Shown: in pieces, positions 36,020 to 39,414 of the stretch
Layout of the letters: each line of letters opens with the position of its first letter
How positions within the stretch are numbered: position 1 is the stretch's first letter
Source: Leptolyngbya sp. SIO1E4
GTDB taxonomy: Bacteria > Cyanobacteriota > Cyanobacteriia > Phormidesmidales > Phormidesmidaceae
Assembly (NCBI GenBank): GCA_010672825.2
Contig: JAAHFU020000001.1
Location: 744,001-808,000, forward strand
DNA length: 64,000 nucleotides
Reading direction: 5' to 3'
Translations under genes and position numbers: made by a program
The notes under the pieces: model-generated
What the model was told of the DNA's origin: nothing
What the model saw: only the letters and a program-made list of their open reading frames with translations
Databases searched by the model: none

Positions 36020-36677
36020 GGCGGAAATATAGCTGTCCTGGGCGCTCAGTTCGATAGGCAGATATTAGCGATAGTCTATTTCATGAATTGAGCCAATCAA
36101 AATGCTCTCCCGAGAGGTTAATTTTCTTGAATTTATGTATGTGGTTTTTGAAGAAATCACTGGTTAGTGACGCTTAAATTTTATCTTTTTAAGAGCGAGT
36201 AACACCTTTTCGATTGTCTTTGACAAGCAATTTAGTTTTGCCTGTTGTTCCATTTCTGGCTAAATCAAATAAATCTGCTCTCTCATAGGAGTGGGTTTAT
36301 TAATAAAGATGGAATCTGAGGACTCATATCTTTCTGAAAAGTATCTGCAAGTAGCCATTAGCTATTTGTGATATTACTGTCGTTGCCGGTGTGATTTGGA
36401 GCTTTTTTCTTGGCAAAACTTTGCGTTTAGAGCTTGTGAATTATGGGTTGTAAACGCTGCATTTCAATGGCTCCAGCGATCTTTTGCTCAAGGCCATAAA
36501 ATCTGTGATGAGCTGTGTAAGGTTAGTCATTTATGTGAAACCCTTGCCCAGGCTTGTAAAAAATGAGAGAAGTTAGGGTGTTATTTTGTCTGATTCCAAA
36601 CCTGACCGACAGGTCAGGCTGTCGCAGATTTTGTTGATTTGAAACGGATTTTAATTATTTTTAGGAGGATTTTGATC
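36020..36677 (+). promoter_or_regulatory. AT-rich leader of the apcD4-apcB3-isiX cassette
   Basis: A 658-bp stretch without a gene, visibly richer in A and T than its surroundings, between hpt and the cassette. A perfect inverted repeat CCTGACC-GACA-GGTCAGG lies at 36601-36618, 60 bases before the apcD4 ATG. A TTGACA hexamer at 36220 has no convincing -10 partner. TAGGAGGA precedes the first gene. Regulation is inferred from position only. Confidence 0.5.
36601..36618. promoter_or_regulatory. inverted repeat, possible operator or leader hairpin
   Basis: CCTGACCGACAGGTCAGG, two perfect 7-bp arms around GACA. It could bind a dimeric regulator or form an RNA hairpin in the leader. No tract of T follows, so it is not a terminator. 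Confidence 0.45.
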
Positions 36678-37151
36678 ATGAGTATCGTTGCGAAAGTTAT
36701 TGCTCAATCTGATCGAGTAGACCGCTTTCTCAGCAGTGCTGAACTTACCCAACTTCAAGGTTTCTTTAGTAATGGGACGCTGCGTATTAGTGCCTCACAG
36801 AAGTTGGCAGCTAACGAGCAAAAGATTGTTGATGAAGGCAGCAAGCGGTTCTGGGCCCAATGTCCAAATACCCCCAGTAACAGTGGTAATCCTCAAAAGA
36901 CCTCTCTTTGTCAGCGAGATCAAGGCTGGTATATCCGTGTGCTGAGCTACTGCGTTTTGGCAGGTAATTCTAAGCCTTTAGAAGATATTGGACTGGACGG
37001 AATGCGCGATATGTATGTATCGCTGGGCGTGCCTCTAGCCAATTTGAAGATTGCTATGCGCTGCCTGAAGGAAGTCGCCATGGGGATTTTGACGGCCGAA
37101 GAAGGAGCCTTGGTTGCTCCCTACTTTGATCAGCTGGTTCGCGCTTTTTAG
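36678..37151 (+). CDS. apcD4: divergent allophycocyanin alpha-type subunit (ApcD4-like, far-red/low-light)
   Basis: A 157-residue phycobiliprotein. It keeps the chromophore Cys78 and the Arg80-Asp81 pair (LCQRDQGWY), but where normal ApcA/ApcD read CLRDLDYY it has Gln79, Gly83 and Trp84. It has extra cysteines at 62, 92 and 129 and a shortened, rearranged segment before the chromophore (CPNTPSNSGNPQKTS). These differences, and the neighbours apcB3 and an isiX-like antenna, match the low-light cassette whose products form far-red-absorbing helical allophycocyanin. AGGAGGA precedes the ATG at 36678; an upstream in-frame start would add 13 unconserved residues. The exact paralogue name is an inference from context. 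Confidence 0.75.
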   Translation: MSIVAKVIAQSDRVDRFLSSAELTQLQGFFSNGTLRISASQKLAANEQKIVDEGSKRFWAQCPNTPSNSGNPQKTSLCQRDQGWYIRVLSYCVLAGNSKPLEDIGLDGMRDMYVSLGVPLANLKIAMRCLKEVAMGILTAEEGALVAPYFDQLVRAF

Positions 37152-37244: not shown

Positions 37245-37730
37245 ATGCAAGATACCATTACCGCCGCCATTAACCCCGCTGATGAAAAGGGCATCTATCT
37301 GGAGGGCGCTGGGCTAGAGAAGCTGAAGCAATATTTCCAAAGTGGAGAGTTGCGCGTAAAAGCAGCAACCCAAATTGGGGCTTCCGTTTCTAGCATCATT
37401 ACCGAAACCGTTGCTAAAAGCTTGCTTTACGGAGATATCACCTGCCCTGGCGGCAACATGTACCCCACGCGTCGCTATGCTGCTTGCCTGCGCGATTTGA
37501 CTTACTTCTTGCGCTACGCCACCTATGCCATGTTGGCAGCAGATGCCTCCATTCTGGATGAGCGCGTATTGAATGGGCTGAAAGAAACTTACAGCTCTTT
37601 GGGAGTGCCCGTTGAGCCTACCATTCAGGCGGTTCAGGCCATGAAAGAGGTCGTTACTCAACGGGTTGGGTCTGATGCTGGCCAAGAGATGGATGTCTAT
37701 CTCGATCACATCATTTCTGGTCTAAGCTAA
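37245..37730 (+). CDS. apcB3: allophycocyanin beta subunit (ApcB3-like)
   Basis: A 161-residue beta subunit. Chromophore Cys81 in [16 protein letters not shown] and the methylated-Asn position Asn71 in [11 protein letters not shown] are kept, as is [21 protein letters not shown]. Differences from housekeeping ApcB include Cys67 (usually Arg) in [10 protein letters not shown], Thr86 in place of the usual Asp of RDLDYY, and a divergent N-terminal helix. It lies 93 bases after apcD4 and 85 bases before isiX in one direction, so the alpha and beta pair are likely made together. Confidence 0.8.
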
Positions 37731-37815: not shown

Positions 37816-39414
37816 ATGTACGCTGCAAGCAAAAGCCAGGAACAATTCTCCTGGTGGGCTGGTAATGCCCGATTTATCGATCTATCCAACACCTTTATTG
37901 TGGCCCATGTTGCCCAAGCTGCGCTGATCATGCTGTGGGCGGGCACATTCACCCTGTTTGAATTGGCTGTCTATTCTCCCGATGAACCCCTGTACGCGCA
38001 AGGGCTCATTCTGCTCCCTCACCTCGCGACTGAAGGTTGGGCGGCAGGGACCAGTGGCGCGATCGCCAACACCTACCCTTTCTTTGCCATTGGGGTGATT
38101 CATATCGTGGCAGCTGGGGTTTTAGGGGCCGGTGCCTATTTTCACCGCAACCGGTTAGCCCCTAGCCTAGATGCGGAACCGGGAAATGCCTCTAAGTTTC
38201 ACTTTGATTGGGGCGATCCTAAGAAACTAGGATTTATCCTGGGGCATCACCTTACCTTTTTGGGGTTAGGTGCACTTTTACTGGTCGTCAAAGCCATGTT
38301 TTGGGGCGGGCTTTACGACCCTACCCTAGGCGATGTGCGCTTAGTTACCTCCCCCACATTAGACCCAGCAGCTCTTTGGAGTTATCGGACTCACCTGTTT
38401 GATGTCAGCACCCTGGAAGACCTGGTGGGCGGGCACATTTATGTGGCTGTTCTGTTGGTCTTAGGCGGAGCTTGGCATATTTTGGTGCCTCCCCTTAATT
38501 GGGTCAAGCGGGTGTTTATGTTTTCTGGGGATGGGATTCTGTCCTACTCGCTGTTTGGCGTTGCCATCGCTGCCTTTGCCGCGTCGTACTACTGTGGATT
38601 TAACACCCTGGCCTATCCGGTAGAGTTTTATGGCCCAACGCTGGAGCTAAAATCGTCCTTTTTGCCATACTATTTCGACCCCAATGATTCTCTGGCAGGG
38701 GGCTATACATCACGGACCTGGTTAGCCAACACCCATTTTTACTTAGCCTTTTTCTTTTTGCAGGGAGGGCTTTGGCACTTTCAGCGGGCGATGGGCTTCA
38801 ATTTCAGCCAGACAGTCCAGAACTGGCAGCAGAATATCGCTGAAGTGAGCAACAACCCTACGCTGATTTACCAAAACCCGTTCCGTTCCGAGCCTCAGCC
38901 TCTGTTGGCAGTAAAGTACGAAGTCCCTCAGGTTGATCCTCAGCCGTTGCTGCGTCAGGAGCAACCTTTTGCAGACTACCTGTATTGTCGTTCCCAGGGC
39001 ATTAAGCAGCCCAACTTAACGGCCATTAATGGGGTGGAAAATACGCTGTATCAAACCACCTACAACACCTATAAAGACACCTTTTACCAGGTCTCAACGC
39101 CTGTGGATATGAAGAGCCGGTTTGGCTATGGTGCTCGATCGCTGGAAGAATGCTATAGGCAACCCTCACAAACGGGCATTAGGCAGCCCAACTTAACGGC
39201 TATTAATGGGGTGGAAAATACGCTGTATCAAACCACCTACAACGCCTATAAAGACACCTTTTACCAGGCCTCAACGCCTGTGGATATGAAGAGCCGGTTT
39301 GGCTATAGCGCTCGATCGCTGGAAGACTGCTATGGGCAACCCTCACAAACTGCTCAGGTGTCTGATTATCCTCGCTCGCTAGATACCGTTGTTTACGAAT
39401 CACCAAAGTCCTAG
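37816..39414 (+). CDS. isiX: CP43/IsiA-type chlorophyll antenna with repeat-bearing C-terminus (IsiX-like)
   Basis: A 532-residue thylakoid protein. Residues 1-345 are a six-helix IsiA/Pcb/CP43-like antenna, starting [23 protein letters not shown] with several His ligands for chlorophyll ([30 protein letters not shown]). The large CP43 lumenal loop is absent, as in IsiA. After residue 345 comes about 190 extra residues with no membrane helix: a Pro-rich linker ([22 protein letters not shown]), then two copies of a 59-residue unit at 395-453 and 454-512. I do not recognise this unit. Place at the end of the cassette identifies it as IsiX-like; in that system it accompanies helical allophycocyanin and probably photosystem I. 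Confidence 0.8.
38998..39351 (+). repeat. 177-bp in-frame tandem duplication inside isiX
   Basis: Unit 1 (38998-39174) and unit 2 (39175-39351) each code 59 residues starting GI(K/R)[12 protein letters not shown] and ending PSQT. The proteins differ at six positions (K/R, T/A, V/A, G/S, E/D, R/G), so this is a real, somewhat aged duplication and not an assembly echo. Confidence 0.95.

Follow-up and report, generated by a model that had tools for sequence, protein, structure and literature searches.

IsiX is a light-harvesting protein made by some cyanobacteria under dim far-red light. An extension of nearly 100 residues was reported for IsiX by Olsen et al. 2015 (PMC4477158), and a Gln- and Pro-rich one of approximately 150 residues was described for IsiA2 of H. 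hongdechloris and its relatives by Chen et al. 2019 (PMC6416890). Gisriel et al. 2023 (PMC10038336) gave a 127-residue extension, which was proposed to act as a molecular ruler threaded through the helical ApcD4-ApcB3 nanotube, or to wrap it, near photosystem I (PSI); IsiX, like IsiA, was proposed to associate with PSI. In the same article, FRL-AP copurified with the IsiX of Synechococcus, whose chlorophyll binding was called putative, and purified ApcD4 and ApcB3 yielded helical tubes; Synechococcus PCC 7002 has already served as a host for FRL-AP. This implies that the extension is not needed for building the tube, but perhaps for holding or sizing it. The attachment of the tube to the membrane and the setting of its length were left open in that article.

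The window, that is, the whole stretch of 64,000 nucleotides of Leptolyngbya sp. SIO1E4 DNA that was analysed, carries apcD4, apcB3 and isiX, all on the + strand (Table 1). The isiX product has the features that place it with IsiX, namely, the antenna domain, the apcD4 and apcB3 cassette, an extension past approximately residue 345, and Gly or Ser in helix VI. Over residues 13-330, the protein scores 397.6 bits against the chlorophyll a/b antenna model TIGR03041 (IsiA/Pcb; cutoff 335); the best PDB matches of the domain are the IsiA structures 6k33 and 6nwa, and its helices are present in the AlphaFold model. In the IsiX tree, from which G317 was omitted on account of its interrupted antenna frame (its tail stays in the tail set), the protein of the window groups with 44 other IsiX proteins with 100/100 support, apart from three IsiA-type outgroup rows. 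Helix VI reads LQGGLWH, with Gly replacing one His; Gly or Ser stands at this position in 44/45 membrane-bearing IsiX proteins, the remaining one having escaped the pattern used. Chen et al. 2019 (PMC6416890) described two His residues as missing from helix VI, and the comparison made here covers one of them. The window genome also holds a cluster of three further IsiA/Pcb-type genes (C5:264280-267558; L039, L041 and L043) and two psbC-sized relatives (C1:225496 and C3:574510), which may represent a second, far-red photosystem gene set.

The apcD4 ORF is listed from a TTG codon, its relatives align from approximately residue 14, and the start is likely the ATG at 36678. Its best PDB match is 8ddy_A (E 2.2e-81), and 8ddy is an entry named for FRL-AP (PMC11614940). 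No gene for the LcyA photoreceptor was recognised by reading the ORFs of at least 80 residues at 30-46 kb of the window; its absence has also been published for H. hongdechloris, so LcyA is no strict requirement for an IsiX cassette. The tail in the window is the published IsiX extension that goes with the apcD4-apcB3-isiX (low-light, LoLiP) cassette and is not new in itself. The repeat, the tyrosine array and the membrane-less IsiX described below find no mention in the passages of open-licence PMC papers on IsiX that were consulted.

Table 1. Features of the apcD4-apcB3-isiX locus in the window, and mini-IsiX genes of other genomes
Feature	Position	Strand	Remarks
apcD4-like allophycocyanin alpha subunit, LoLiP cassette	36639..37151	+	Pfam Phycobilisome; PDB match 8ddy_A
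apcB3-like allophycocyanin beta subunit	37245..37730	+	Pfam and NCBIfam models; adjoins isiX in 49/49 loci
isiX	37816..39414	+	ORF of 532 aa, antenna domain plus tail; TIGR03041 match, IsiX clade
Six-helix chlorophyll-binding antenna domain of IsiX	37816..38847	+	Family models, PDB matches, AlphaFold helices
C-terminal IsiX tail, 188 aa	38848..39411	+	Predicted disordered; pLDDT <50 for residues 347-532
Tyr352, motif 1 (IYQNP)	38869..38871	+	Tyr in 47/47 single-copy tails
Tyr368, motif 2 (KYEVP)	38917..38919	+	16 residues on; Tyr 47/47, spacing 16 in 47/47
Tyr390, motif 3 (LYCRS)	38983..38985	+	22 residues on; Tyr 47/47
59-residue unit, copy 1	38997..39173	+	Spacer plus Tyr motifs 4-7: TLYQTTY, FYQ, GYG, CYRQP
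Tyr412, motif 4 (TLYQTTY)	39049..39051	+	22 residues on; Leu-Tyr 47/47
Tyr424, motif 5 (FYQ)	39085..39087	+	12 residues on; Tyr 47/47
Tyr438, motif 6 (FGYG)	39127..39129	+	Not conserved in all tails
Tyr447, motif 7 (CYRQP)	39154..39156	+	23 residues after motif 5; Tyr 39/47 at column
59-residue unit, copy 2	39174..39350	+	Tandem repeat of copy 1
Tyr471, duplicated motif 4	39226..39228	+	24 residues on
Tyr483, duplicated motif 5	39262..39264	+	
Tyr497, duplicated motif 6	39304..39306	+	
Tyr506, duplicated motif 7	39331..39333	+	
Tyr527, last motif (VVYESP)	39394..39396	+	Tyr 43/47 at column
mini-IsiX genes	L045:7621-8139, L123:6045-6563, L124:5656-6186		Six membrane helices lost in frame

Over its 188 residues, the tail contains 18 Tyr, 18 Gln, 17 Thr, 16 Ser, 16 Pro, 13 Leu and 11 Asn. 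A sequence-only reading of the window had called it rich in Tyr, Asn and Thr, which holds for Tyr and Thr, but Asn is outweighed by Gln and Pro. The same reading saw neither a membrane helix nor a recognisable linker domain in the tail, and both observations are confirmed: no 19-residue window reaches a hydropathy of 1.6 in any of the 49 tails compared, and no Pfam or NCBIfam linker model matches up to E 1. By the same measure (0/49 tails), the extra membrane helix suggested for the extension of the Synechococcus protein in PMC4477158 is unsupported. In searches of the tail against Pfam and NCBIfam, nothing reaches a curated cutoff; a match to Pfam Proho_convert (E 0.0027; 18.1 bits, cutoff 25; 12 residues) was taken as chance. 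All matches of the tail in the PDB have E values of at least 1 and were also taken as chance, and a 28-row profile, in which the window tail is aligned with 27 other tails, gives none up to E 10. We infer that the tail is intrinsically disordered; the low pLDDT of the model (Table 1) is weak evidence of this, since the AlphaFold alignment held 7 sequences, only two of them with the tail. After helix VI, there are 132-186 residues in single-copy tails (n = 47), 210 in the window and 246 in the genome G082. Every IsiX relative examined carries a tail, so the tail is not special to this protein, as had been supposed; the duplication alone is unusual.

A new finding from the alignment is that motifs centred on Tyr recur along the tail at conserved distances and form an array. 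The set of 47 single-copy tails used for this comparison consists of the 49 loci minus the window genome (G000) and G082, with 3 mini-IsiX proteins (see below) included. Pairwise identity in this set ranges from 16% upward, with a median of 32%; five Tyr, one Trp and one Leu are invariant (47/47), and identity per column averages 0.93 over nine Tyr columns versus 0.43 over the 83 columns between the motifs. The motif mostly takes the form hydrophobic-Tyr-Gln/Glu, with Pro soon after, and approximately seven to eight such motifs occur per normal tail. At seven motif columns, the Tyr is directly followed by Gln or Glu in 43-98% of cases, against a background of 17%; the lowest of these is column 71, with only 43%, and two further Tyr columns that are off the pattern (100 and 153) have 44% and 0%. 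The first and second Tyr are separated by 16 residues in every tail; the second and third by 19-25 residues (22 in 31/47); the third and fourth by 22-24 residues (22 in 42/47); and the fourth and fifth by 12-13 residues (12 in 39/47). Towards the C-terminus, tails differ both in the distances between motifs and in which motifs they have: the fifth Tyr is 17-29 residues from the next, less conserved one (23 in 13/39 tails with both Tyr), which in turn is 18-22 residues from the last (21 in 25/35 tails with both Tyr).

A chain of predicted disorder with multivalent Tyr motifs would also suit a sticky scaffold that clusters short FRL-AP oligomers with no defined register, much as CsoS2 and EPYC1 cluster Rubisco. 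However, such a loose scaffold would have no need for the nearly exact motif distances found in the N-terminal half of the array (16 in 47/47; 22 in 42/47), and we regard this explanation as rather improbable.

The tail and the nanotube genes occur together. In a class sample of 388 genomes, itself part of a larger group, the tail search (cutoff E 0.01) matched 35 genomes, of which three were dropped as chance, leaving 32. A search of the same genomes with an apcD4 protein query, at an E cutoff of 1e-60 set by us, found apcD4 in 32, and 31 of these are shared with the 32 that have the tail. The only genome with apcD4 and no tail is G359, where a 3,617-base contig breaks off next to apcD4, on the side expected to carry isiX; the only one with the tail and no apcD4 is G344, where the contig ends just past isiX, in or close to apcB3. 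A profile of 28 tails matched 19/63 genomes in the window's own family (its order holds the same 63 genomes), 20/291 genomes in the order of G198, of which one was dropped as chance and one is a broken cassette, and 6/27 genomes in the family of G198, all six already among the earlier matches. The 49 IsiX or mini-IsiX loci examined, with the window included and G236 represented by L002 (same sequence), have a gap between apcB3 and isiX of 41-315 bases except in G317, where the larger figure comes from the interrupted antenna frame; apcD4 is in view at 48 of them. The two genes apcB3 and isiX are on the same strand in 41 loci, and isiX is on the opposite strand in 8, as published for C. fritschii (PMC6424891). 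G485, a rearranged broken cassette, was left out of the 49; it has apcB3 and IsiX N-terminal fragments on one strand and an open 122-residue tail frame on the other (L126:6157-6983).

The sequence-only reading had held that the same tail in proteins of another context would speak against a role with the phycobiliproteins. No such tail was found in the genomes searched, four weak matches dropped as chance aside, and a search of 72,556 plasmid records gave no match. The four are an unrelated ORF in G048 with no cassette genes nearby, frames with stops in G097 and G228 (E 0.006 and 0.009), and a match in G505 (E 0.006).

Based on the array and its distribution, the tail is probably a disordered multivalent linker whose spaced Tyr motifs would dock on the ApcD4-ApcB3 nanotube. 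A link from the tube to the chlorophyll antenna or PSI had been suggested from the sequence, and this is a hypothesis already contained in Gisriel et al. 2023 (PMC10038336); what the comparison backs is the partnership of tail and nanotube, through their co-occurrence, the presence of apcB3 at 49/49 loci and the mini-IsiX genes. In the proposed mechanism, the motifs would dock one after another on sites that recur along the far-red allophycocyanin nanotube of ApcD4-ApcB3, on one side of the tube or the other, and in a normal IsiX the chain would hang the tube on the membrane antenna beside PSI. The task of such a linker would be to hold the tube, to cap it or to size it, and the chain may set the amount of tube held, which is the published ruler idea. 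Conversely, the tail might dock on PSI or another membrane partner, with the Tyr motifs reading the PSI surface and the antenna domain holding the nanotube. This would agree with the IsiA structures as best PDB matches of the antenna domain and with the IsiX-PSI association proposed by Gisriel et al. (PMC10038336). On the other hand, three species retain the tail beside apcD4-apcB3 without the antenna domain, the one tail in the class sample that lacks apcD4 lies at a contig end, and seven to eight similar motifs would be needless for a single PSI surface. We consider docking on PSI improbable.

A stronger version of the linker reading is that the tail is a modular ruler tuned to the nanotube lattice, in which the module copy number would set the tube length and mini-IsiX would be a soluble cap or sizer; we offer this tentatively and think it unlikely. 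An extended chain covers approximately 3.3 Å per residue. Consequently, 22 extended residues would span 72.6 Å, equal to the seven-protomer repeat of FRL-AP (72.6 Å; PMC10038336). However, the 16- and 59-residue distances fit no simple rule of 22 or 11, so the lattice register is only a suggestion. The same arithmetic applied to the 59-residue unit, which is no clean multiple of 22 or 11, was not counted as evidence. If the ruler were true, it would be a new kind of phycobiliprotein linker built of short tyrosine motifs.

The two tandem units of 59 residues within the 188-residue tail are borne out, with 53/59 residues identical. At the DNA level, the 177-nt copies are adjacent, in frame and 95% identical, and the self-alignment score of the tail is 282 versus at most 51 in 20 shuffles, so the repeat is not due to chance. 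Motifs 4-7 fall within the duplicated unit, and the array of the window thereby grows from approximately eight to twelve motifs; the distance across the copy junction, 24 residues, keeps the usual motif spacing of 22-24. When copy number was compared across the IsiX relatives, as the sequence-only reading had proposed, this duplication was found only in the window genome among the 49 loci. Self-similarity beats all 20 shuffles in 16/49 tails, strongly only in the window genome (282) and in G082 (101). The duplication in G082 covers another, partly decayed stretch, and because the stretches differ, the two are best read as independent by sequence; the IsiX tree gives no resolution on whether the two proteins are neighbours. 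The G082 protein (L046:9451-11154) has, besides its own partial tail duplication and the long tail given above, an extra C-terminal TLYQAP motif. Elsewhere in the window, two tandem copies of a 22-bp unit with 95% matches lie at 1498-1541.

Judged from these comparisons, the 59-residue duplication is a recent strain-level variant. The chances appear even that it is a recent neutral slippage product with no functional effect. The copies differ at 8 nt in 174 nt (58 whole codons), with 6 nonsynonymous and 2 synonymous changes and an omega of 0.86, which gives no sign of selection on the second copy, and strong internal duplication occurs in 2/49 loci only, with different extents. On the other hand, the copies are in frame, all 12 Tyr in them are spared (chance probability 0.42), and the junction keeps the 22-24 spacing, although neutrality is still compatible with these points. 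If the tail is a linker docking on the nanotube, as we favour, the four added motifs (4-7) in the usual spacing should let the chain of the window genome hold a longer tube.

Another new finding, in three congeneric species (G198, G571 and G557), is a gene located after apcD4-apcB3 that encodes a protein of 173-177 residues, here called mini-IsiX. Its first 28 or so residues correspond to the IsiX N-terminus, with greater divergence in G557; from there, the frame passes directly into the segment that follows helix VI and then the complete tail, and the three species share this in-frame junction. Its largest 19-residue hydropathy values are 0.78, 0.78 and 0.08, so the protein is probably soluble. 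No second tail match was found in G198, G571 or G557; another genome of this genus, G592, encodes IsiX at full length. In G571, several other IsiA-type genes are present. In G198 and G557, besides relatives of psbC and psbB size (names assigned by size and identity), only short antenna fragments were found; a truncated IsiA-type fragment in G198 (L079:4632-5165) matches residues 63-232 only. Both chlorophyll antennas of this family may therefore have been lost from G198. G198 and G571 share 96-100% identity across the block apcD4-apcB3-mini, against 52-82% and 74-87% in its flanks (L045:5901-8650 versus L123), which suggests that the block was recently exchanged as one unit.

It might be argued that mini-IsiX is a decaying remnant of IsiX and not a working linker. 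Its omega is 0.40-0.42 in pairs with G557, exceeding the 0.16-0.21 of comparisons with or between full-length tails, the N-terminus of G557 has diverged further, and G485 shows that cassettes do decay. Between G198 and G571, mini-IsiX has 5 nonsynonymous and 0 synonymous changes; all differences in their apcD4 and apcB3 (three or two) also alter residues, which makes constraint appear relaxed for the recent pair as a whole. However, decay sits poorly with the same in-frame junction in three species, with the open frame (35 random changes would leave it free of stops with a chance of 0.09), with three indels that are all multiples of three (G198-G557 alignment), with 30 bases upstream of the start that are nearly unchanged, and with a block with apcD4-apcB3 that is nearly identical in two species. 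We find decay somewhat unlikely. Under the linker reading, the chain freed of its membrane domain would persist in the three species as a small, probably soluble cassette protein. Mini-IsiX argues for a separation of the tail from chlorophyll binding, and since the tail is kept there without the antenna, a linker role would need no chlorophyll domain.

The tyrosine array and the antenna-less IsiX, which are new here, make the published hypothesis testable. Nature provides variants for this purpose, namely, the lengthened tail of the window genome, that of G082, short tails, and the antenna-less tail of three species, and the invariant tyrosines are the residues to target by mutation.

Among known systems, the closest is LoLiP IsiX (thermophilic Synechococcus, H. 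hongdechloris IsiA2 and C. fritschii), which has the same cassette genes and an IsiA/CP43' domain with an extension; compared to it, the 59-residue tandem duplication is a feature of the window genome. IsiA, CP43' and Pcb share the six-helix chlorophyll-binding domain with the IsiX of the window. However, the IsiA-type relatives compared stop soon after helix VI, whereas IsiX continues as the tail, and the IsiA-type His in LQGHLWH of that helix is Gly or Ser in IsiX (44/45). The CpcL-type phycobilisome linker, an analogy taken from PMC10038336, holds a phycocyanin rod at PSI from the membrane; in contrast to this linker, the IsiX tail has no Pfam linker domain and is a string of short motifs instead.
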